This document shows, piece after piece, positions 8,588 through 51,215 of a stretch of 64,000 nucleotides of DNA. Below the pieces are notes generated by a model. It was not told the origin of the DNA and searched no databases. It was given only the letters and a program-made list of their open reading frames with translations. Each line of letters opens with the position of its first letter. Position 1 is the stretch's first letter. The position numbers and the translations under genes are program-made. Source of the DNA: Roseovarius arcticus (lineage in GTDB: Bacteria > Pseudomonadota > Alphaproteobacteria > Rhodobacterales > Rhodobacteraceae); NCBI RefSeq assembly GCF_006125015.1, contig NZ_SZZN01000001.1, positions 2,232,001 to 2,296,000 of the forward strand, given 5' to 3'.

Positions 8588-9868
8588 ATGAATACCCTTA
8601 AATCCGTACTGGCTGGTACGCTTGCCTTTTCCGGTTTGGCGGCGCCCGCATTCGCCACCGAATGCCCGATCAAAGTTGGCGTCTTGCACTCGCTGTCCGG
8701 CACAATGGCAATTTCGGAAACGACGCTGAAAGACACTATGTTAATGTTGATCGAACAGCAAAACGCCAAGGGTGGCCTGCTCGGTTGCGATCTTGAGGCA
8801 GTTGTGGTCGATCCGGCGTCGGACTGGCCGCTGTTTGCCGAGAAAGCACGCGAGCTGTTGTCAGTTCACGAAGTTGATGTGATTTTTGGCAACTGGACCT
8901 CTGTCAGCCGCAAATCCGTGCTGCCTGTGATCGAGGAGCTTAATGGCCTGCTGTTCTACCCCGTGCAATATGAGGGCGAAGAAAGCTCCAAAAACGTGTT
9001 CTACACGGGCGCGGCTCCGAACCAGCAGGCGATCCCCGCCACGGATTATTTTCTTGAAGAACTGGGGGTCGAGAAATTTGCCCTTCTGGGCACGGACTAC
9101 GTGTATCCGCGGACGACAAACAACATCCTCGAGAGCTATCTGAAGTCCAAGGGCATCGCCGAAGACGACATCTTTCTGAATTACACGCCTTTCGGCCACT
9201 CAGATTGGTCCAAGATCGTGGCCGACGTCGTGGCTCTTGGCGCAGACGGCAAGAAGGTCGGCGTGATCTCGACCATCAACGGCGACGCGAATATCGGCTT
9301 TTACAAAGAACTGGCCGCAGCAGGCATTTCGGCTGACGACATCCCGGTCATCGCCTTTTCGGTGGGCGAGGAGGAACTCTCGGGCCTTGATACTACCAAC
9401 CTCGTCGGCCACCTCGCCGCATGGAACTACTTCCAGTCTGCCGAAGCCGAAGCCAACACCAGCTTCATCAAAGCGTGGAAGGCCAAGATGGGTGAAGAGC
9501 GCGTGACCAACGATCCGATGGAGGCGCATTACATCGGCTTCAACATGTGGGTGAACGCGGCCACTGCGGCAGAATCTACAGAGGTCGATGCCGTTCGTGC
9601 CAAGATGTACGGGCAAGAGTTTCCCAACCTGACTGGCGGCACCGCCGTGATGTTGCCCAACCACCACCTCGCCAAGCCAGTGCTGATCGGGGAAATTCAG
9701 GCCGACGGGCAGTTCGATATTGTCAGCCAGACTTCCGAAGTACCTGGCGACGCATGGACCGATTTCCTGCCGGAAAGCGCGCTGCTTACCTCGGATTGGA
9801 AAGATCTGGACTGCGGGATGTACAACACAGAGACCAAGACCTGTGTCCAGACTTTGTCCAATTACTGA
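8588..9868 (+). CDS. urtA: Urea ABC transporter substrate-binding protein UrtA
   Basis: Periplasmic urea-binding protein of the branched-chain amino acid (HAAT) type. The 426 residues begin with a signal peptide (cleavage near AFA-TECP) and continue with the typical KVGVLHSLSGTMAISE N-terminus of UrtA. GAGGAG stands 8 bases ahead of the ATG. A hairpin without a T-run follows the stop, before urtB. The neighbouring urtBCDE and urease genes support urea as substrate, which then feeds the cytoplasmic urease. Confidence 0.97.
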   Translation: MNTLKSVLAGTLAFSGLAAPAFATECPIKVGVLHSLSGTMAISETTLKDTMLMLIEQQNAKGGLLGCDLEAVVVDPASDWPLFAEKARELLSVHEVDVIFGNWTSVSRKSVLPVIEELNGLLFYPVQYEGEESSKNVFYTGAAPNQQAIPATDYFLEELGVEKFALLGTDYVYPRTTNNILESYLKSKGIAEDDIFLNYTPFGHSDWSKIVADVVALGADGKKVGVISTINGDANIGFYKELAAAGISADDIPVIAFSVGEEELSGLDTTNLVGHLAAWNYFQSAEAEANTSFIKAWKAKMGEERVTNDPMEAHYIGFNMWVNAATAAESTEVDAVRAKMYGQEFPNLTGGTAVMLPNHHLAKPVLIGEIQADGQFDIVSQTSEVPGDAWTDFLPESALLTSDWKDLDCGMYNTETKTCVQTLSNY

Positions 9869-9885
9869 TCACTGACACCAAGTAG

Positions 9886-9910
9886 CGGAAGGGGCGCGTC
9901 GTCCCTTCCG
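9886..9910 (+). other. Intercistronic hairpin urtA-urtB
   Basis: CGGAAGGG (9886-9893) pairs perfectly with CCCTTCCG (9903-9910) across a 9-base loop. There is no T-run directly after it, so it is not a typical terminator. In transport operons such hairpins behind the binding-protein gene often protect the upstream mRNA and raise binding protein over permease; that role is inferred here. Confidence 0.6.
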
Positions 9911-9929
9911 ATCCTTGCGGGATTTTTAC

Positions 9930-11882
9930 ATGAAACACCTATTGATTGCGGCCCTCGCTCTGGCGATGACCTGCTCGCTTGCGCGCGCCCAAGACGCACC
10001 GATACAGGCGATCCTTCAGGCGCAATCTGCGTTGATCATCGAAAATTCGCGCAGGACCATTGCTCCGGCAATTGCCGCAGTGTCAGGCAGCGGCTTGCCT
10101 GAGGCGCAGGACGTATTGCAGGCATGGCAGGGCAAGAATCTTTGGCAGCGCACCACCGACGGGATGTTCTTTCGGGCCGAAAAGAGTGAGGGCAAGACCT
10201 ATCAGCTCTATGATTTCGACACGGGCGAAATTGCCGGGTCAGCCCCTGCCTCTGATCTGGAACAGATCAAACCAAATAGCGGCATTCGCGCTTTGATCGG
10301 GTCAGCACTGGTGCAATTTCAGTTGCAAGATGCGGATCCCAAAAGGCGCCTTGCCGCACTTACGTCGGTGCAGCGCAACCCCAGTGCGGAGGTGCTGGAA
10401 CCGCTCAGAGGGTCCATCGCAGCCGAGGACGATCCGACAATCCGTGCCATGAAGGTCAGGGCCGAGCGTTTGCTGACCATCGCCTATGATTCCGATGAGG
10501 CCGAGCGGATCAAGGCCATTTCCGAAATGTCCGGCGACCTTGGTGTTGATGTTCGGGCCACGCTCAACCCCTTGCTCGCGACCCGCAGAGCGATTTTTGC
10601 GGGCGCGCCGCCCGAGACACTCAACATTGCCGAGACGCTGGTGCCGGGAGCCTCGGTCGGGGTGATGTCGGCCTATGACATGCTGGTGGACGCCGACCTT
10701 GCCCCGCCACGGGTGACGGACGCGCAGGTGCGCAACGCACTGATAGAAAATGCCAAGGGCGGCAAGGTCGGGGGCATCCCGATCCACCAGTTGGATGATC
10801 CCGGCATACGGCGGCGCGCTTATGCCGCTCTGGCCGCTGCGGGCAGCGTGCCACCTGACCCTGATGCCGCGCAGATCGCACAGGCACTGGACGCGCACAG
10901 CATTGTCGAAGTCTATCTGGAACCCTCGCGGAAAGTGACAGATGCCGTTTCCGAGGCGCTGGAAACCATCGCGCTGACGGTTGGTGTAAACCAGACGGTC
11001 GACCTTATTCTTGACGGGCTGTCGCTCACGTCGATCTACTTTCTTGCGGCCATCGGGCTCGCCATCACCTTTGGCGTCATGGGTGTCATCAATATGGCGC
11101 ATGGCGAATTCATCATGATGGGTGCCTATACCGGTTATGTGGTGCAGCAGATCATCCCGAACCATACCGCCAGTATTCTCGTGGCAATCCCGATGGCATT
11201 TGCAGTGACCTTCGCGGCGGGTGTGGTGATGGAGCGGCTGGTAATCCGGTGGCTCTACAATCGCCCATTAGAGACCCTGCTCGCGACTTTTGGCGTCTCC
11301 ATCGCGCTTCAGCAATTAGCCAAAAACATCTTTGGGACGCAGGCACGCCCTCTGACCTCTCCGGCGTGGCTGGATGGCGCTTGGGTAATCAATGATGTGG
11401 TGGCAATCAGCTTTATCCGCATCGCAATCTTCGCGCTGGCTGCGTTTTTCCTCGGTGTTTACATATTTATCATGCGGTGCACGCGGCTGGGCTTGGAGAC
11501 CCGCGCTGTGACGCAGAACCCCCGCATGGCGTCGTCGATGGGGATCAATCTCAATAAGGTCAACATGCTGACCTTTGGCCTTGGCTCCGGAATTGCGGGA
11601 GTCGCTGGGGTTGCCATCGGGCTCTTTGCCAAGGTCACCTCCGAGCTGGGCAGCGACTATATTGTGCAGAGCTTCATGACCGTGGTTGTCGGCGGCGTCG
11701 GAAACATCTGGGGCACGCTGGCGGGGGCCGCGATGATCGGTTTCATGCAAAAGGGCATCGAATGGTTCAACCCGTCAAACACGTTGGCGGCGCAGACCTT
11801 CATGATCGTGTTCATCATTATATTCATTCAATTCCGGCCAAGGGGCATCATCGCGCTCAAAGGCCGCGCGGCCGGGGATTAA
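9930..11882 (+). CDS. urtB: Urea ABC transporter permease UrtB
   Basis: LivH-type inner-membrane permease of the urea importer, 650 residues. It has a signal peptide (MKHLLIAALALAMTCSLARA), an extension of roughly 330 residues with few hydrophobic stretches, then a permease core starting near SIYFLAAIGLAITFGVM with the MAHGEFIMMGAY signature. The long N-terminal extension is usual in proteobacterial UrtB. ATG at 9930 is preferred over a TTG at 9915 because it begins the signal peptide. It ends 4 bases before urtC. Confidence 0.96.
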   Translation: MKHLLIAALALAMTCSLARAQDAPIQAILQAQSALIIENSRRTIAPAIAAVSGSGLPEAQDVLQAWQGKNLWQRTTDGMFFRAEKSEGKTYQLYDFDTGEIAGSAPASDLEQIKPNSGIRALIGSALVQFQLQDADPKRRLAALTSVQRNPSAEVLEPLRGSIAAEDDPTIRAMKVRAERLLTIAYDSDEAERIKAISEMSGDLGVDVRATLNPLLATRRAIFAGAPPETLNIAETLVPGASVGVMSAYDMLVDADLAPPRVTDAQVRNALIENAKGGKVGGIPIHQLDDPGIRRRAYAALAAAGSVPPDPDAAQIAQALDAHSIVEVYLEPSRKVTDAVSEALETIALTVGVNQTVDLILDGLSLTSIYFLAAIGLAITFGVMGVINMAHGEFIMMGAYTGYVVQQIIPNHTASILVAIPMAFAVTFAAGVVMERLVIRWLYNRPLETLLATFGVSIALQQLAKNIFGTQARPLTSPAWLDGAWVINDVVAISFIRIAIFALAAFFLGVYIFIMRCTRLGLETRAVTQNPRMASSMGINLNKVNMLTFGLGSGIAGVAGVAIGLFAKVTSELGSDYIVQSFMTVVVGGVGNIWGTLAGAAMIGFMQKGIEWFNPSNTLAAQTFMIVFIIIFIQFRPRGIIALKGRAAGD

Positions 11883-42369: not shown

Positions 42370-43758
42370 TCAAGCCAGTTCGGTCTTGGGGAAGATCACA
42401 CAAACCCGCAGACCCGGCGCGTTATCCGACAGACTGATCCGCGCGTGATGAAGGCGGCCGATTGCTTTGACAAGCGGCAGGCCCAGCCCGTGACCATCGG
42501 AGGTGCGGCTTTTATCGATCCGGTAGAAGCGGCGAAACACCTTTTCGGCCTCATCCTTCGGTATTCCCGGGCCATTGTCCGAAACGCTCAGTCTCGGGCC
42601 ATCCGCGCCGTTCTCAAGCGCGACATGAAACGTCGACCCCGGTGGGCAATGGCGGATCGCGTTTTCGATCAGATTCGCTAGCAATTGGCCTAGCAGGGCC
42701 GGATCGCCGCGGACCTGAACCACAGCCTCAGGCACCGAAGTGGTCAGGGTCTGCCCCTCATCCTCGGCCACCGGCTGGTAAATCTCGGACACGTCCCGGG
42801 CGATATTTCCCAAATCGACAGGAACAAAATGCTCGTGCTGGACGCCCGATTCAATCTGGGCAATCCGCAGCAATGCGTTGAACGTTTCTATCAGGTTTTC
42901 CGTCTCTCCTAGCGCTGCCTGCAAATCTTCGTCGTCGGCACGCTCCTCGCTCATCCGCTCCAGCCTTTGGCGCAGACGCTGCAAGGGGGTGCGCAAGTCA
43001 TGCGCGATGTCCGTTGCGATCTGTTTCTGGCTTTCCAGCAAGGTCTGCAACTGGTCCAGCGCAGCATTAACGGCAGCCGAGACGCGCGAGAGGTCGTCCA
43101 TGTCACCGCCCGGTTCCGGAATACGCTTGGCCAGCGCGCCACCTGACACATCCTCCAGCGTCTCCATGATGCGGCTGATACGCCGCTCGGTCCGTATACC
43201 GACGGACTGGCCAATAATCAGCCCCGCGGAAATAACCAAGATGTAACCCGCAACAAGCGCGATGCTGAGCGCCTCCATCACCTCTGCGATCACATGATCG
43301 CCCGTGCCCTGGATCAGCGTGTAGGGTCCAATGCGGTCCACCCGGATCCAGTATCCGGAAACCTCCCGGCTGGGCAATGCACCCGCATCGACGGCGGTGA
43401 CGGGCAGATAGATGCGATCGCCCGCCTGCTCAATCTCGACGTCGATCATGTCCCCAGCAAGGTGCGCGCCATCCGAGCCACGCAATTGATAGATGCGCTC
43501 ATTTTCAGCGCTGAAGTCGCTTAGGAACGCGATACGGTCGATCAAAACGCCCGATCCTTGGCCCTCATGGATATTTTGCAGCATAGCCGCATCAACCCGC
43601 ATTTGATCCGCGATCCAATCGCGCACCTCATAGTCCGTCATCCAGTAGGCCCCAAAAAACATCACGGCGGACAGGATGGCATAAAGAAATGCAAACTGAA
43701 GCGATAGCCGGACAGACGTCCGGTTCAGGCCCAAGCGGTGACGGCCGCTATCAGGCAT
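42370..43758 (-). CDS. Sensor histidine kinase
   Basis: Membrane sensor of 462 residues: span at about 19-39, periplasmic domain at about 41-163, second span at about 164-186, HAMP, then the phosphoacceptor helix with H253 (IAHDLRTPLQRL) and ATPase motifs N-box (LLANLIENAIRH) and G-box (VSDNGPGIP). The domain layout is that of QseC/PmrB-type EnvZ-class kinases. The periplasmic part carries several acidic residues, which might bind cations. ATG at 43758 overlaps the regulator gene by 8 bases. Its regulator and the eptA genes across the divergent region make it a likely envelope sensor. Confidence 0.92.
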   Translation of the reverse strand: MPDSGRHRLGLNRTSVRLSLQFAFLYAILSAVMFFGAYWMTDYEVRDWIADQMRVDAAMLQNIHEGQGSGVLIDRIAFLSDFSAENERIYQLRGSDGAHLAGDMIDVEIEQAGDRIYLPVTAVDAGALPSREVSGYWIRVDRIGPYTLIQGTGDHVIAEVMEALSIALVAGYILVISAGLIIGQSVGIRTERRISRIMETLEDVSGGALAKRIPEPGGDMDDLSRVSAAVNAALDQLQTLLESQKQIATDIAHDLRTPLQRLRQRLERMSEERADDEDLQAALGETENLIETFNALLRIAQIESGVQHEHFVPVDLGNIARDVSEIYQPVAEDEGQTLTTSVPEAVVQVRGDPALLGQLLANLIENAIRHCPPGSTFHVALENGADGPRLSVSDNGPGIPKDEAEKVFRRFYRIDKSRTSDGHGLGLPLVKAIGRLHHARISLSDNAPGLRVCVIFPKTELA

Positions 43759-44422
43759 GCAGGCTATATCCCGCACCGCGGACGGTGTGGATCAGGCTGG
43801 ACGCGAATGGTTTATCAATCTTGTTACGCAGGCGGCTGATGTGGGTCTCGACGACGTTGGTGCGCGGATCAAAATGGAAATCCCATACCGCCTCCAGCAG
43901 CATGGTGCGGGTCAGTACCTTGCCGGTATTGCGCAGCAGATAGACCAACAGACGGTATTCGCGCGGTTGAAGCGTGATCGGCTGCCCTGCCCGTTCGATA
44001 CTATGGCGCACCAGATCCAATTCCAGGTCAGCGACCTTCATCACTGTCTCCTCAGTCTGCATCGGCGGGCGGCGCATCAGCGCAGTAATTCGCGCATGCA
44101 ACTCGGAAAAGGCAAAAGGTTTAACGAGATAGTCGTCGGCGCCCGCCTCCAGCCCCTCAACGCGGTCGTTCAGGCCGCCCATTGCGCTGAGGATGATGAT
44201 TGGCGTGGGCACATCTGCGATGCGGATGGATTTAACGAGCGATAGACCGTCCAACTTGGGCAACATGCGGTCGATGACCATAACATCGAAATCATTGTCG
44301 AGCGCTTGCAGATAACCCTCTTTGCCGTCCGCCGCATGCAGTGGCACATGCCCCTGCGCGCTCAGACTAGAACAGATATAATCTGCCGTCTCGCTATCGT
44401 CCTCAACCACCAAGATCCGCAT
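43751..44422 (-). CDS. OmpR/PhoB family response regulator
   Basis: Regulator of 223 residues: receiver domain with acidic pocket (VEDDS), phosphoacceptor D51, K101, and a winged-helix output domain (ITLQPREYRLLVYLLRNTGK, VETHISRLRNKIDK). First gene of a two-gene operon with the kinase. It is divergent from a gtrA-like gene and the eptA-dgkA-psd-pssA group, a context like PmrAB with eptA in enterobacteria. No binding specificity can be read from the sequence alone. Confidence 0.94.
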   Translation of the reverse strand: MRILVVEDDSETADYICSSLSAQGHVPLHAADGKEGYLQALDNDFDVMVIDRMLPKLDGLSLVKSIRIADVPTPIIILSAMGGLNDRVEGLEAGADDYLVKPFAFSELHARITALMRRPPMQTEETVMKVADLELDLVRHSIERAGQPITLQPREYRLLVYLLRNTGKVLTRTMLLEAVWDFHFDPRTNVVETHISRLRNKIDKPFASSLIHTVRGAGYSLHA

Positions 44423-44510
44423 GATATTTCATTCCCGGCAAATGCCTGCCGCCTGTTCCTACTAGAATGTCCGCCTGTTTACGCCAGAATAATCTGATTG
44501 TTGCCAAATC

Positions 44511-44522
44511 GTATAGTGCCGA
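44511..44522 (+). promoter_or_regulatory. Repeated 12-base element, copy 1 (GTATAGTGCCGA)
   Basis: Lies 122 bases before the gtrA-like start and about 90 bases from the regulator's start. An identical copy lies 520 bases further on, before eptA. The TATAGT core could be a -10 box; upstream, CC-A-T positions also match between copies. Candidate promoter or operator of the two-component system. Confidence 0.5.
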
Positions 44523-44644
44523 TCAGGCGCGCGCCGGAGATGGGCGTGTATCAAGGGCGCCACACCGTCCCACCGGAGCAGGTAGATGATCCATCCCATC
44601 CAGCAATTCGCCGTGCTGCGTCCGCAAAGGCCGGCTGCCCGGCC

Positions 44645-45019
44645 ATGATCGCGCGGATCTTTCGGCTCTCCTTTGTTGGCGCAGCCGCGACACTGGTCCA
44701 TCTATTGATCGGCATCACCTTGATCCAGGCAGGCTGGGTGCCGGCAATCGCCAACGCGGCCGCATTTGCGCTTGCCTTCTTTGTCAGCTTTGCGGGGCAT
44801 TTCGGGTACACGTTTGCGGATGGCGAGAAATCGATCCCGGCGGCGTTGCTGCGCTTTATCGCCGTCGCCCTTGCCGGTTTTGCCGCTAATGAGGCTATTC
44901 TGACAGGGCTTTTGATACGCCACGCCCTATCCCCCTCTGCGACGCTGGCTGTCTCTACCGCGCTGGTCGCGCTCGGCAAATTTGCACTGTGCCGCCGGCG
45001 GACATCGGCACCGTCCTGA
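44645..45019 (+). CDS. GtrA-like membrane protein
   Basis: Four-span protein of 124 residues; the start IARIFRLSFVGAAATLVHLL and the loop FVSFAGHFGYTFADG are typical of the GtrA family, which helps move polyprenyl-linked sugars across the inner membrane for glycosylation of LPS or wall polymers. ATG at 44645 begins just before the first span; the frame runs upstream to 44498 without obvious coding. Its GtrB-type transferase partner is not in this window. It sits between the two copies of a repeated element, next to eptA. Confidence 0.78.
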   Translation: MIARIFRLSFVGAAATLVHLLIGITLIQAGWVPAIANAAAFALAFFVSFAGHFGYTFADGEKSIPAALLRFIAVALAGFAANEAILTGLLIRHALSPSATLAVSTALVALGKFALCRRRTSAPS

Positions 45020-45042
45020 TCGGCCGCCTAGATAACCGATTG

Positions 45043-45054
45043 GTATAGTGCCGA
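45043..45054 (+). promoter_or_regulatory. Repeated 12-base element, copy 2 (GTATAGTGCCGA)
   Basis: Lies 66 bases before the eptA start in a 100-base gap after the gtrA-like gene. Identical to the copy at 44511-44522 over 12 bases, with partial similarity just upstream. Position suits a promoter for the eptA-dgkA-psd-pssA operon. Confidence 0.5.
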
Positions 45055-45119
45055 ACACGTCCACGGGACTTTCGCCTCAGTAGAGTTGGCGAAAAATAAC
45101 CGGCGGAGGCATCGATTAC

Positions 45120-46856
45120 ATGGCACAAATCAAAGCTGGCGCCCAAGCCAATGCCGATCCAATCAAATTTACCGGTTCAAAACAGGGCTCAGCAGGCCCT
45201 TGGAGGTTGGCGAAAACCGCAATGAGGTTGTGGTCGGCTCGCCCCTCAATCTCGGGATTGTTGCTAGTCATAATCACAAATATCTGGCTGCTTGCCGCGT
45301 TTAGCACCTCGTTTTGGCAGCAAGCCTATATTCTCTTTGGCGCGCAGCCCAAATTGCTCATACTCTTTGGTATCGGCATCTGGGCGTTTACGATGATCTA
45401 TGTGCTGGTCTTTACAAACCGCTGGTTTCTAAAGCCATTTTTGATTGCCAACATTCTGATCGCAGCTGGCGCATCGTATTATCACGAGACGATGGGGATC
45501 ATCATTGATCGCGAAATGATCCAGAACATCCTGACCACTACGGCCAACGAATCCAGAGGTCTGATCACCGTCGCATATGTTAAATACATGCTGGTGTTCG
45601 CGCTTTTGCCATCCATCGTAATCCTCGCGGTACGGGTGTCGCACCCTCCATTTTTCAAATCGGCAGGGCGCCACCTCGCTCTGTTGGCTATGTGCATTTT
45701 AACGTTTGCCGGGATAACGCTGGGCAATTACCAAGTCTTCTCATTTGGGGTCAAGCAATCGGCGGGGATGCGGGAAATATTGCACCCAGAATCCACAGTT
45801 CAAAGTATCCTGAAATACGCCCAGATGACGTGGAGAGCGCGGACCATGGAGTTTCAGAAAATTGCGCTGGATGCCCACAAGGGCGGGGTGGCGAAGCGCG
45901 CCGCTCATCCGGTTCTGACTGTCCTAGTTGTCGGCGAAACTCTGCGAGACCAGAATTGGGGGCTAAGCGGGTATGGCAGGGATACCTCACCAGAACTGGC
46001 TAAGCGTGACATTTTGCCGATTGGAGGTGTTCAAAGCTGCGGCACGTCAACAAATGTGTCCATTCCCTGCATGTTTTCAAAGCTTGGGCGCGGGGAATTT
46101 ACCCATGAAAAGGCCGGCGCTGAGGAAAATCTTTTGGACGTCCTTGCCCGTGCGGGGTACGATATCGAATGGTGGGATGCGAACACCGGCGACATGGGCG
46201 TAGCCAAGCGGGTGACATATGCAAATTTCAACCAAGCGGCCGATCCCGAATTTTGCACTAACGGCGAATGTAACGATGGTATTTTGTTAAAGCAGCTCAA
46301 GAAGAGGGCCAGCGAGATCAAGAGGGACACGGTTATCGTAATGCACCAGATCGGTAACCATGGGCCCGCCTATTTTGAGCGCTACCCAGAGGAGTTCGCC
46401 AAATTCCTACCTGATTGCCGGGACGCGGATCTGGCGGAGTGCGCCCCCGAGGAGGTCGTCAATGCCTATGATAACGCAGCCGCCTACACTGACTTGCAAA
46501 TTGCCAAGACCATTGACTTTTTGAACGATTTGCCCGACCTCAGCACTTCACTTGTCTATATCTCAGATCACGGCGAGTCCCTTGGTGAGAAAGGATTGTA
46601 TTTGCACGCTGCTCCCTACTGGATCGCCCCCGAAGAGCAAAAACGCGTGCCGATGGTGGTGTGGATGTCCGAGCGATTCAAGCAAGATCTGAAACTGGAC
46701 TATGACTGTGCGCGCGCACCCGACGACGGGCCCGTGACGCAGGATAACTTTTTTCATTCGATCCTTGGAATGCTCGATATTGAAACCACCGAACGCAAAG
46801 AGGATCTGGATATTTTCGCATCGTGCAGAACAGCGGAGCAGGTCGCCCTTCGATGA
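45120..46856 (+). CDS. eptA: Lipid A phosphoethanolamine transferase
   Basis: EptA/MCR-type enzyme of 578 residues that moves phosphoethanolamine from phosphatidylethanolamine to lipid A in the periplasm, leaving diacylglycerol. Five spans lie within residues about 45-205; the soluble alkaline-phosphatase-like domain has E273 (VGETLRD), nucleophile T311 in CGTSTNVSIPCMFS and D483-H484 (YISDHGES), the expected zinc and catalytic residues. The stop overlaps dgkA by 4 bases. GGAGG lies near the ATG. Members can raise resistance to cationic peptides; whether this one does is not shown here. Confidence 0.95.
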   Translation: MAQIKAGAQANADPIKFTGSKQGSAGPWRLAKTAMRLWSARPSISGLLLVIITNIWLLAAFSTSFWQQAYILFGAQPKLLILFGIGIWAFTMIYVLVFTNRWFLKPFLIANILIAAGASYYHETMGIIIDREMIQNILTTTANESRGLITVAYVKYMLVFALLPSIVILAVRVSHPPFFKSAGRHLALLAMCILTFAGITLGNYQVFSFGVKQSAGMREILHPESTVQSILKYAQMTWRARTMEFQKIALDAHKGGVAKRAAHPVLTVLVVGETLRDQNWGLSGYGRDTSPELAKRDILPIGGVQSCGTSTNVSIPCMFSKLGRGEFTHEKAGAEENLLDVLARAGYDIEWWDANTGDMGVAKRVTYANFNQAADPEFCTNGECNDGILLKQLKKRASEIKRDTVIVMHQIGNHGPAYFERYPEEFAKFLPDCRDADLAECAPEEVVNAYDNAAAYTDLQIAKTIDFLNDLPDLSTSLVYISDHGESLGEKGLYLHAAPYWIAPEEQKRVPMVVWMSERFKQDLKLDYDCARAPDDGPVTQDNFFHSILGMLDIETTERKEDLDIFASCRTAEQVALR

Positions 46857-47254
46857 AAGACGGTGACACACAGATCCGGCCCAAGCCGGGCCGGATTACG
46901 GGTATTCGCCATGTCTTTGCCGCGGCGGGGTACTCCATTGCCGGAGTTCAGCGACTGTGGAAAGAGGCGGCATTTCGACATATTGTTCTGGCGTTTTTGT
47001 TATGTCTGGGCCTCCTTGTCGCCATCGGCGCTAGTTGGGCCCAGCTTTGCATTTTCCTGATTTTGTTCCTTGCACTTATCGCGGTCGAGGCGCTGAATAC
47101 GGCGATCGAATGTATCGTCGATCACCTTGCGCCTCACTGGCAGGAATATGCGCGCGACGCCAAGGATCTGGGATCTTTGGCGACTATGTGCGTGCTGATG
47201 GCCAATGGTCTATTCCTCGGCACCGTAGTCCTTCAACACTTTGAAATTTTCTGA
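46853..47254 (+). CDS. dgkA: Diacylglycerol kinase
   Basis: Small membrane kinase of 133 residues making phosphatidic acid from diacylglycerol. The signature [14 protein letters not shown] is intact and three spans are visible. ATG at 46853 overlaps the eptA stop (ATGA). Adjacency to eptA is biochemically sensible: EptA releases diacylglycerol, which must be recycled. Confidence 0.94.
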
Positions 47255-47264
47255 AAGCTCGTTT

Positions 47265-47957
47265 ATGGATATGATCAAGATCGTCGCCGTGCCAATGCAC
47301 AAGGAAGGCCGGAAGTTCGTGGCGATCTTTGCCGCGATCACTGTCGCGTTGGCCTTTCTTTGGCAGCCACTCTTTTGGCTGGGCTTCGGCGCTACGGTCT
47401 GGTGCTACTATTTCTTTCGCGATCCGGTGCGCGTGATCCCCCAGCAGGAGGGTTTGGTGCTGTCGCCTGCCGACGGTATCATTTCGCTGATTGAGGATGT
47501 CGTGCCGGCCGAGGATCTAGGTCTCGGGGATACGCCTGTTACACGCGTTTCAGTGTTCATGAATGTCTTTAACTGCCACGTAAACCGCGCGCCGATTGCA
47601 GGCACGGTTCGCAAGATCGCCTATCACAAGGGCCAGTTTTTGAACGCCTCTGTCGACAAGGCAAGCGAGCTGAACGAGCGTAATTCGGTCATGATCGAAA
47701 CAAGCGACGGTGCGCGCATTGGCGTTGTGCAGATCGCTGGCCTCGTTGCCAGACGTATCGTCTGTTTTGTCAAAGAGGGTGATAGCGTCCAGATTGGCCA
47801 CCGTTTCGGCTTGATCCGGTTCGGGAGCCGTCTTGATGTTTATCTGCCCCAAGGCGTCTCGCCATTGGTCGCAGTCGGACAAACAGCTGTCGGCGGCGAA
47901 ACCATTCTTGCAGATCTCGCAGCACCCGGCACCGTGCGTCCAGGAATTGCAGAATGA
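47265..47957 (+). CDS. psd: Phosphatidylserine decarboxylase, short form proenzyme
   Basis: Makes phosphatidylethanolamine from phosphatidylserine using a pyruvoyl cofactor formed by self-cleavage. The 230 residues fit the short PSD-A class; the cleavage site is the Gly-Ser of RFGSRLD near the C-terminus. Other landmarks are [10 protein letters not shown] and [15 protein letters not shown]. Hydrophobic spans at about residues 20-55 suggest membrane contact. Start at 47265 (ATG) is preferred; TTG at 47241, overlapping dgkA, is an alternative. Ends 4 bases into pssA. Confidence 0.94.
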
Positions 47958-48733
47958 CCGAAACGCAGCGAGTCAAATTGCGCCACCTCGTTCCCAGCAT
48001 TGTCACGGTGTTTGCGATTTGCGCAGGCCTGACGTCCGTCCGGATGAGCCTCGAAGGACATTTGGAAGCGAGCCTTTATTTCATTCTGGCGGCCGTTTTC
48101 CTCGACGCGGCAGACGGCAAACTGGCGCGCTTTCTGGACACCGCCAGCCCCTTTGGCGCTGAGCTGGACAGCCTTGCCGATTTCTTTAACTTCGGCATAG
48201 CGCCGGGAATACTGCTATATAACACGCTCTACATCGGCACCCAGCACGCCAGCATCGGTTGGCTTGCGACACTGGTTCTGGCTGTGTGCTGTGCGCTAAG
48301 GCTGGCCCGTTTCAATCTATCGATTCATCGTGCAGACGTGACGTTGAAAAAGGACGGATTCTTTGTAGGTGTGCCGGCGCCCGCACTTGCATGCCTCGCG
48401 CTTATGCCGGTATTTTTGTATCTTAGTGGATGGCAAAATAGCGACTTTCCCGTCGCGCGGGCCATCTACGTCATTTGCGTCGGCTTGCTGGCCGTCAGTA
48501 CAATCCCCAGCTATTCGATAAAACACGCATCCATCAAGCAGGCCCACCTGCCCTTTTTCGTTGTTGGTGCGGTGGTTCTGGTCGTCTGCCTTGTGGTCTA
48601 TCCGTGGCTGACGCTGATCCTGGCCAACTTGATCTATCTTGGCTCTTTGCCGTTTTCGTATCTATCGTTCAAGAAAATGGATCATAGTAGCGATGGCCCT
48701 GAGGGAGTGGAGCCGCCCCATTCCGTCGAGTAG
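47954..48733 (+). CDS. pssA: CDP-diacylglycerol-serine O-phosphatidyltransferase
   Basis: Type-II phosphatidylserine synthase of 259 residues. The CDP-alcohol phosphatidyltransferase motif D-G-x2-A-R-x8-G-x3-D-x3-D is complete (from DGKLAR to DSLAD). About eight spans. It overlaps psd by 4 bases, so serine lipid is made and decarboxylated by coupled genes. Last gene of eptA-dgkA-psd-pssA; it converges on the VIT gene. Confidence 0.95.
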
Positions 48734-48760: not shown

Positions 48761-49462
48761 TCAGCCAACGACCGCGACGTGAAAGAGCTTGCCCACGATT
48801 GCCGTCGCCCCCATGGCCGCACCGCCCCAAAACATCACCCTGAATGCGCCCCGGACGAGGCTTGCTCCTCCGGCTTGGGCGCCAAGGGCGCCGAGGATTG
48901 CCAACAGAAATATCGTCGCGACCGAAACATAGATGCCGATCTGATCGAAAGGTGAAAAGAGGACTATGAGCAAAGGCGGGAACGCCCCGATTGAGAAGGA
49001 TACGGCAGACGCGAACGCGGCCAGCAGCGGCTTTGCGGTTGCCAGATCAGTGATCCCCAATTCCTCGCGCGCATGCGCACCGAGCGCGTCATGAGCGGTC
49101 AGTTGTTTTGCAACCTCCGTCGCCACATCCGCGCTAACGCCCCGCTCGGTAAAGGTCGCGGCCAACTCGATCAGTTCTTCACGCGGATACTCGGCCAGTT
49201 CGCGGCGCTCGACCGCAAGATCGGCCTGTTCTGTATCCGCCTGAGAGCTGACCGATACATATTCCCCAGCAGCCATCGACATCGCGCCAGCGACCAGACC
49301 GGCCGTTCCGGCCAGCAAAACTTCGGTCGCGCTGCCAGCGGCTGCAGCCACGCCGACGATCAGACTGGCCGTAGACACGATACCATCATTTGCCCCAAGA
49401 ACAGCCGCCCGCAGCCAGCCGATACGAGAGACGTTGTGATGTTCTGAATGCTGTTTGCTCAT
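48761..49462 (-). CDS. VIT family membrane transporter
   Basis: Protein of 233 residues with five spans, homologous to VIT1/CCC1 iron and manganese exporters. The start GWLRAAVLGANDGIVSTASL and MSMAAGEYVSVSSQADTE segment are hallmarks; the loop between spans 2 and 3 is acidic and suits metal binding. It probably removes excess Fe(II) or Mn(II) from the cytoplasm. A single gene, convergent with pssA. Confidence 0.88.
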   Translation of the reverse strand: MSKQHSEHHNVSRIGWLRAAVLGANDGIVSTASLIVGVAAAAGSATEVLLAGTAGLVAGAMSMAAGEYVSVSSQADTEQADLAVERRELAEYPREELIELAATFTERGVSADVATEVAKQLTAHDALGAHAREELGITDLATAKPLLAAFASAVSFSIGAFPPLLIVLFSPFDQIGIYVSVATIFLLAILGALGAQAGGASLVRGAFRVMFWGGAAMGATAIVGKLFHVAVVG

Positions 49463-49727: not shown

Positions 49728-50825
49728 TCATCCATCCTCTAAATGCAGGATCAACCCAAAAGCCAGAAGCAACCCTGCAGCCGGCGGTGCCCATGCTGCG
49801 ATCAGAACGGGAAGTTGGCCATTCTCACCCAAAATCAGTGCAAAATTGCGCACGAAATAAAGCAAAAAGCCCGACAATATCGCGAAGAGCACCATCAGGC
49901 CGGTATGACCCGATCGTGCATGGCGCATAGTGAATGCCGCGCCGATCAGCACCATCGTGGCCAGAAACAATGGCCGGGCAAGTTCAGTTTGCAGCCAGAT
50001 CAGAGGGCGGCGCGTTGAAAATCCCGCGCGCTTGAGTTGGGCAATATGGGCGGGCATATCCCAGAATGAGATCGACGTAGGGGTGCCGAGATACGCGGCG
50101 ATACGCTCCTGCGTCAATGACGTCGGAATACGCATCACGTCGTACCTTTGGGACGCCGCCTCTGGATTTTCTGTGTCGGTAATCGACCAATCCTTGGCCT
50201 CGGACAACTGCCAAAATCCGGCGACCAGCTTTGCTACGCGCGCCTCGATCCGCTCTGACGGCGTTCCGGTGGCGTCGAACATGATGAACGTCACGTCATA
50301 AAATTCCGACCCGTCCGCATTGGCGGACGCGGCTTGGATCACCGCCTGACCGCCGCTTGTGCCCTGCCGCAGCCAGAGCCCATTCGCACTGATCGAAAAC
50401 GCGGCCTCGTCGCCGCTGCGGTACCTTGAACTGAGGATTTCATACAGATTTGAACTGCCTGTGACGATGGGGTTCAAAACCGTTACAGCAGTAACGCCGA
50501 TCAATAACGCCACCGATATAGGTGCGACGAGCACCCGCATCGCAGACCAGCCCAAAGCGCGCGTAACCACCAATTCCGACGATCGCGCGAGTCCAACAAA
50601 GAGCGCGAGGGAGGACAAGATCATCACCAGTGGCAGAAATTCGTAAAGCTCTCTGGGAGCGCTCAACAAGATAAGTTGCAGTATCTTGCGAAATCCGACG
50701 CCGCTGCCGCCGTAACGCCCCACCTCCTCCATCAAGTCGATCATCGCTAGAATGACGGCAAAGATCACAAAAACCATGAGAAACGTCATTACGAACTTAC
50801 GGGCAAAGTAGCGATACAGTCTCAT
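49728..50825 (-). CDS. lptG: LPS export permease LptG-like, without lptF partner
   Basis: LptF/LptG superfamily permease of 365 residues: three spans in the N-terminal part (TFLMVFVIFAVILAMIDLME), a periplasmic beta-jellyroll domain at about residues 130-260 and three C-terminal spans. The sequence is LptG-like. LptF and LptG normally sit side by side; here there is no lptF within the window. It may be a second copy or a relocated lptG. A 31-residue ORF overlaps its start by 4 bases. Confidence 0.88.
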   Translation of the reverse strand: MRLYRYFARKFVMTFLMVFVIFAVILAMIDLMEEVGRYGGSGVGFRKILQLILLSAPRELYEFLPLVMILSSLALFVGLARSSELVVTRALGWSAMRVLVAPISVALLIGVTAVTVLNPIVTGSSNLYEILSSRYRSGDEAAFSISANGLWLRQGTSGGQAVIQAASANADGSEFYDVTFIMFDATGTPSERIEARVAKLVAGFWQLSEAKDWSITDTENPEAASQRYDVMRIPTSLTQERIAAYLGTPTSISFWDMPAHIAQLKRAGFSTRRPLIWLQTELARPLFLATMVLIGAAFTMRHARSGHTGLMVLFAILSGFLLYFVRNFALILGENGQLPVLIAAWAPPAAGLLLAFGLILHLEDG

Positions 50826-50917: not shown

Positions 50918-51215
50918 ACTTACCTCGTTAACTGCTAGATATGTACATGACGCGATATGACTGACCGCGCCATGGTCAGATTTATACCGTTTGGCAATGC
51001 AGCGCGCAGGGCTGACGTTCTTGAATCTATCCGCCGGGCCTAGCTCGGCTAAGCTCACATTTGTGGTCTGCGCCTCCGCTTGAAAATCGGCAGGTGATCT
51101 GTTCGGCTGGAGTTTCTGGCGGCGGGAACCACTTAATCTAGGGCTTCGCGCCCGCTCGGCTTTTTCAGCTTTGTGTCCCGCAGGAACCTGGCGTGCGCGC
51201 TAGCACCTTCCCCGC
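50918..51215. other. Intergenic region between the acyltransferase and the lptG leader
   Basis: About 300 bases that must hold the lptG promoter on the minus strand. I see no tRNA or clear terminator and no recognisable gene. Confidence 0.4.

Follow-up and report, generated by a model that had tools for sequence, protein, structure and literature searches.

Organization of the eptA-dgkA-psd-pssA block

The window analyzed here, a stretch of 64,000 nucleotides from Roseovarius arcticus (contig NZ_SZZN01000001.1, positions 2,232,001 to 2,296,000), harbors four consecutive genes of lipid A modification and phosphatidylethanolamine (PE) metabolism, eptA, dgkA, psd and pssA, which lie head to tail on the plus strand at 45120-48733 in a 4.22-Mb genome made of two contigs and given as 100% complete. 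An earlier note on this DNA had let the unit start at 43751, a coordinate that takes in the response regulator gene, and had described the genes as contiguous and mostly overlapping. Their order stands, as do the 4-base overlaps between eptA and dgkA and between psd and pssA, but the figures for the dgkA/psd junction do not: a TTG start at 47241 results in a 14-base overlap and an ATG start at 47265 in a 10-base gap. The ATG is backed by the dgkA-psd gaps of relatives, which measure 10 bases in locus L011 and 11 in L017.

All four proteins score above their Pfam cut-offs. EptA (45120-46856, +), a member of the phosphoethanolamine-lipid A transferase family, matches PF08019 (113.4 bits) and PF00884 (198.7 bits) and exceeds the cut-off of the general NCBIfam model for such transferases (NF028537, 520.7 vs. 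500); it does not reach that of the narrow EptA equivalog (NF008619, 455.4 vs. 660) and remains below that of every MCR family model listed in NCBIfam. It aligns with the Neisseria EptA structure 5fgn (E = 8.2e-102), the motifs GET, CGTST and SDHGES included, which we take to contain the catalytic threonine and the metal-binding residues. Judging from family and motifs, the block EptA would move phosphoethanolamine from PE to lipid A. The diacylglycerol kinase DgkA (46853-47254, +) matches PF01219 and aligns with the solved DgkA 3ze3 (E = 2.7e-13), without any match in NCBIfam. The phosphatidylserine decarboxylase Psd (47265-47957, +) matches PF02666 and exceeds a curated equivalog cut-off (NF003677, 369.1 vs. 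315); no sequence match was obtained among solved structures. The CDP-diacylglycerol-serine phosphatidyltransferase PssA (47954-48733, +) matches PF01066, scores 101.6 bits against a TIGR00473 cut-off of 107, aligns with the solved PssA 7b1k (E = 3.4e-13), more distantly than EptA and DgkA do with their counterparts, and contains what is presumably the CDP-alcohol motif.

Copy number in the genome

The genome encodes a single Psd (one PF02666 match), so that the second psd-pssA pair for which the earlier note had proposed a search does not exist, and a role of psd-pssA as a second, dedicated copy is ruled out. Four proteins match PF01066, namely the window PssA, a PgsA (above its cut-off), a phosphatidylcholine-synthase-like protein (according to its best models, all below cut-off) and one without assignment, which leaves the window gene as the only recognized pssA. 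There is one EptA_B_N match. DgkA has two, but one of them corresponds to a short part of a disrupted gene, which leaves the window dgkA as the only intact copy. The broken fragment adjoins a sulfatase-family gene (L007, about 1375-1581, -; C1:3878075 in the same genome). Because psd, pssA and intact dgkA are all single-copy, the block serves all PE needs of the cell and the whole supply is joined to a consumer. This does not support the proposal, as it was worded, that the unit refills its own donor lipid as a dedicated device. The statement that only CDP-diacylglycerol synthase is missing from the block is borne out; two CTP_transf_1 (CdsA-type) genes lie elsewhere (L172, C1:3643066; L173, C1:1395420).

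Recurrence of the gene order

The order was surveyed in 80 named loci, taken as the best among 589 confirmed stretches. This sample favors close relatives of the window Psd, and the flanks of many loci are cut off by contig ends. Among these 80, PssA adjoins Psd in 79, eptA is present in eight and dgkA in nine. The full order eptA-dgkA-psd-pssA is intact in L017 (Ascidiaceihabitans) and also occurs in L011 (a Boseongicola metagenome-assembled genome), where the contig end cuts eptA, and in L012 (Sulfitobacter DFL-14), where eptA is in pieces with its middle part missing. Two Planktomarina loci (L022 and L024) show the order pssA-eptA-dgkA-psd, L015 (Lentibacter) carries eptA, a dgkA remnant, psd, pssA and then a two-component system, and L018 and L023 have dgkA-psd-pssA. 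In two Aliiroseovarius loci (L027 and L033), a divergent eptA of another type is found. Psd is single in 20 of the 21 genomes behind these and neighboring loci, the genome of L027 having two.

A distant, second EptA with a PAP2-like neighbor was also observed near psd/pssA in L024 (1974-4218), L017 (about 8943-11307), L027 (4618-6878), L033 (4636-6872) and L022 (246-2489); the PAP2 identity comes from Pfam for L024 and L027 and from tblastn for L017, L022 and L033.

Unbiased draws of 160 family genomes and 84 genus genomes give a broader picture. In the family draw, psd was found in 76 genomes, EptA in 20 (a fragment only in G071) and DgkA in 62; eptA and dgkA are adjacent in 13 of the 20 EptA genomes, and eptA-dgkA-psd occurs in G000, G024, G048 and G061. 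Within the 18 genomes that have both genes (G071 again with the EptA fragment only), eptA lies at most 3 kb upstream of psd in four, compared to about 0.03 expected by our own arithmetic for random placement in ~4 Mb; the linkage is thus not due to chance. The psd regions of 72 of the 76 genomes were examined, G090 having no tblastn hit to the window Psd; G080, G133 and G134, which hold only a distant Psd type, were left out. EptA is present in four and DgkA in five of these regions, 29 of which extend no further than about 1.5 kb to either side. Across the 160 genomes, EptA is accompanied by DgkA in 19 of 20 cases, vs. 43 of 140 genomes without EptA (Fisher p = 3e-8), and by psd in 18 of 20, vs. 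58 of 140 (p = 5e-5), the p values serving as guides only since the genomes are related. EptA without psd occurs in two of the 20 (G126 and G127). In the genus draw, psd is present in 49 and EptA in six of 84 genomes, and eptA adjoins psd in two of those six (G000 and G240). A DgkA match is found in G000, G196 and G199 only among the six. One search with a hidden Markov model (HMM) gave no psd match in 84 of the 160 family and 35 of the 84 genus genomes, and PE synthesis seems patchy in the family. Each link of the cycle is loose, even though EptA in the family draw is strongly associated with both DgkA and psd.

The order is therefore conserved, intact or decaying, in scattered Rhodobacterales, as the earlier note had proposed to verify. 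That note would have given up its idea for a random one-off arrangement around the only housekeeping psd-pssA; the pair is indeed the only copy, but the arrangement recurs and the linked psd genes belong to a single clade (see below), which rules out a one-off.

Descent and decay

A Psd tree of 143 rows was built from 152 regions after removal of nine duplicate rows, with eight duplicate loci left out. The 15 linked psd rows are all contained in a single clade of 33 rows (SH-aLRT support 99); they comprise nine eptA-dgkA-psd (including L011 and L012, with incomplete eptA), three dgkA-psd, one eptA-psd and two with divergent eptA. Within the available flanks, none of the other 110 rows is linked. 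When 43 genus rows were added (four identical ones being skipped), six joined the clade and 37 fell outside, resulting in a clade of 39 rows with a support of 99 (FastTree).

This clade cuts across named genera. Approximately unbiased (AU) tests on 28 rows chosen from the 143 reject a single clade for the window and four named Roseovarius rows (p = 1.4e-78) and for three Sulfitobacter rows (p = 1.3e-7), the groups having been named after the tree was seen and NCBI genus names being possibly polyphyletic. Three psd states (linked clade, other, none) also coexist within one genome-taxonomy genus, and these results together rule out that psd descended vertically along with the named genus.

Within this clade, the block is decaying. 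Remnants or breaks of dgkA precede psd in L015, L205 and L241, which indicates loss from a fuller block; dgkA is open without neighboring eptA in L018, L023, L102, L202 and L240, it lacks its first part in L234, and psd-pssA stands without detectable dgkA in further loci such as L008, L010, L013 and L014. Most likely, an older eptA-dgkA-psd-pssA block spread between genera and lost eptA and dgkA piecemeal; repeated assembly of the block is possible as an alternative to spread and decay. In the EptA tree, linked rows require four changes, vs. a mean of 11.0 after shuffling, and none of 500 shuffles was as low; three EptAs from the same genus that are not linked (L217, L219 and L220) group next to the window EptA. 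A plasmid search retrieved relatives of psd on 48 records, none of them above 80% identity (E limit 1e-30), and relatives of EptA on 176 records, all below 60% identity. The one plasmid region that was read, of Aliiroseovarius crassostreae, carries psd-pssA with no eptA within 5 kb.

Regulatory genes and a shared motif

The divergent two-component system and the gtrA-like gene that the earlier note had seen upstream of the block are both present according to Pfam. A sensor histidine kinase (42370-43776, -; PF00512 and PF02518) and an OmpR-type response regulator (43751-44422, -; PF00072 and PF00486) are transcribed away from the block, and a gene for a GtrA-family four-helix membrane protein (44645-45019, +) sits between the regulator and eptA. 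The best NCBIfam model for the regulator is that of the CzcR/SilR/CopR subfamily, below its cut-off. A canonical PmrAB system was discarded, as neither cut-off is reached (PmrA, 170.7 vs. 330; PmrB, 151.4 vs. 314).

Downstream, a VIT-family gene (48761-49462, -) converges on pssA; the sister locus L241 gave no match to VIT. It is followed by an extra lptF-like gene (49728-50825, -) without adjacent lptG, a probable member of the same regulon; the genome has three LptF/LptG matches, and more than two are found in 10 of the 84 genus genomes. The sister genome G240 (locus L241) presents the kinase and response regulator, again divergent, eptA, a broken dgkA, psd, pssA and the extra lptF, in that order; it also has three LptF/LptG matches, with the extra one near its psd. 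Identities between the two loci amount to 97% for the response regulator, 80% for the kinase, which occupies the same place, 74% for EptA, 87% for Psd, 84% for PssA and 78% for LptF.

Comparison of the intergenic regions of the window and L241 yielded a 25-base-pair motif, TWRCCRAWYSGTATARWNYYRAHCA, with three sites in the window, all kept in L241: between the response regulator and gtrA (44501-44525, +), upstream of eptA (45033-45057, +) and upstream of the extra lptF (50973-50997, -). A scan of 2,475,304 bases, i.e., the window plus 243 loci with duplicates included, gave 13 exact matches (overlaps counted) that correspond to six distinct sites, none at one, two or three mismatches and 13 at four, and no site before psd. 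Identity to L241 in the motif cores is 1.00, 0.94 and 0.88, vs. 0.71, 0.64 and 0.57 in the flanks, and one of 200 single-base shuffles was as low in a test on the three regions. The motif common to regulator/gtrA, eptA and the extra lptF supports their assignment to one putative regulon. Response regulators also neighbor eptA in L011, L012, L015, L168, L176, L177, L185 and L218; they are only 36-39% identical to that of the window, which indicates that a two-component neighbor is frequent, but not this particular one.

The GtrA-like protein

The GtrA assignment is clear (PF04138, 55.6 bits vs. a cut-off of 26.1). Fifteen close relatives were found (at least 66% identity, the protein itself excluded), five of them on contigs of the same size as those carrying relatives of EptA (14371, 4073, 22856, 67645 and 11746), so that these five genes are probably located beside eptA. 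Among the best 120 of 7481 EptA relatives, GtrA is fused to the EptA N-terminus in two (P0014 and P0016); one GtrA-EptA fusion protein comes from Roseovarius sp. S1116L3. When the GtrA portion of P0014 served as the query, no further fusion was revealed among 7168 candidates. The structure model consists of four helices (mean pLDDT 89), and in its comparison no match stood out clearly from the helical-bundle background, membrane domains of dolichyl-phosphate mannose synthase ranking second, third and seventh within that background. A role of GtrA as a lipid flippase, which the name of the family and the linkage might suggest, is speculative.

Proposed role of the block and alternative explanations

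We regard it as moderately probable that the block works as an envelope cassette under two-component control, in which lipid A modification is coupled to both supply and recycling of the donor lipid. The divergent two-component system would sense an envelope signal, and its regulator would act at the 25-base-pair motif before its own gene and gtrA, before eptA and before the extra lptF. On the periplasmic leaflet, EptA would transfer phosphoethanolamine from PE to lipid A and leave diacylglycerol, which DgkA would turn into phosphatidic acid; CdsA, encoded elsewhere, would make CDP-diacylglycerol, from which the PssA and Psd of the block would rebuild PE. GtrA may help to bring lipid to EptA. 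A single transcript is likely. So is a regulated unit, a part of the earlier note to which both the adjacent regulator and the shared candidate promoter motif lend weight; metabolic coupling is plausible.

Several observations weigh against this interpretation. Of the 18 family genomes that contain eptA and psd, 14 do not have the former within 3 kb of the latter in the assembly. DgkA is dispensable, as three of the six EptA-bearing genus genomes have no match to it (G240, G218 and G228, the last 88% complete). In three of the 143 tree rows, and in additional loci of the genus, dgkA-psd-pssA has no adjacent eptA; eptA is the most variable of the four genes, and psd-pssA is therefore retained for reasons unrelated to it. 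Linked EptAs belong to two types distant from each other, and the sister genome G240 has the regulator, the motifs and eptA but a broken dgkA and no GtrA in its locus (L241). The motif was fitted to its own six sites in two related genomes, so that only its absence elsewhere and the core-versus-flank identity are informative. Within the window, the shorter form GTATAGTGCCGA with two mismatches is not significant (seven of 100 shuffles reach its six hits), nor is a 15-base form with three mismatches (17 of 100 reach its five hits), a 16-base form has three further hits at two mismatches, and a scan for a sigma-70-type consensus promoter gave no match, where shuffles average 3.1.

Part of this evidence would suit a simpler situation, in which psd-pssA is a housekeeping pair and eptA-dgkA, likewise a long-known pair, is merely parked upstream, the join reflecting genes that travel together without functional coupling. 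The pair is common, as the named loci indicate, it persists after the loss of eptA, and eptA-dgkA stands alone elsewhere, only four of the 13 adjacent pairs being next to psd. We see this as possible, although clearly less probable than a cassette, given that linked rows are confined to one Psd clade, that 4-base overlaps occur within the block and that the motif precedes eptA and not psd. Alternatively, PE could be a facultative lipid, made mainly on demand as a substrate for lipid A modification; the many genomes without a psd match and the position of the only psd of the genome behind an apparently regulated eptA would fit this idea, which is nevertheless unlikely as close relatives keep psd without eptA and the absences rest on a single HMM search. 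We are slightly more doubtful still of an extended version, in which PE would be inducible and its synthesis slaved to lipid A modification, with EptA, the only PE pathway, DgkA and the extra LptF, a subunit of LPS transport, in one regulon and GtrA flipping PE or diacylglycerol across the inner membrane to EptA. A regulated cassette remains our preferred explanation.

Relation to known systems

Parts of this arrangement are known from other bacteria. In Vibrio, dgkA and eptA form an operon under RstAB/CarRS, and colistin resistance requires dgkA together with eptA (PMC12064563). The window shares with it the adjacent eptA and dgkA and the two-component system alongside; according to the available text, it differs in that the block has eptA first and continues with psd and pssA, and in that gtrA rather than a glycine-zipper gene separates regulator and operon. 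Psd is not mentioned in the main text of the Vibrio paper. Similarly, the eptA(pmrC)-pmrAB operon of Enterobacteriaceae places eptA under two-component control (PMC7559476), such control being predicted in the window, where the regulator is, unlike there, divergent and below the PmrA/PmrB equivalog cut-offs, and where, as far as that source describes the operon, PE synthesis genes are an additional component. In Escherichia coli, psd-mscM is under CpxRA and sigma E, and dgkA under BasRS (PMC8138132). PE synthesis and diacylglycerol recycling are thus under envelope-stress control there, as predicted here, but through separate regulators for dgkA and psd instead of a single block, in the account available. 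Finally, the mcr-3-dgkA pair resembles the window in the transferase beside dgkA, and the mcr-1-pap2 pair resembles the PAP2 beside the second EptA in the Planktomarina, Ascidiaceihabitans and Aliiroseovarius loci (PMC7559476, PMC10285318); PE synthesis genes, present in the window block, are not described for the mcr contexts in the available text of these papers.

The earlier note treated the pairs as known, but not the four genes coupled as one regulated unit, and our literature search, which left most subscription papers outside, found neither a description of the four-gene block nor a match linking GtrA, a phosphoethanolamine transferase and a flippase. The block is real and recurs in other genomes; it is a variant of known arrangements, namely eptA with dgkA and eptA under two-component control, with de novo PE synthesis added. 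Enzymes of the EptA type use up a major lipid and release diacylglycerol, a balance that published work, in the accounts available, treats through dgkA. With the only PE synthesis genes tied to the consumer, the supply side becomes testable in an environmental bacterium, and the motif and the GtrA-EptA fusions offer entry points to the regulon and to a candidate lipid flippase, a role of GtrA that is a guess.

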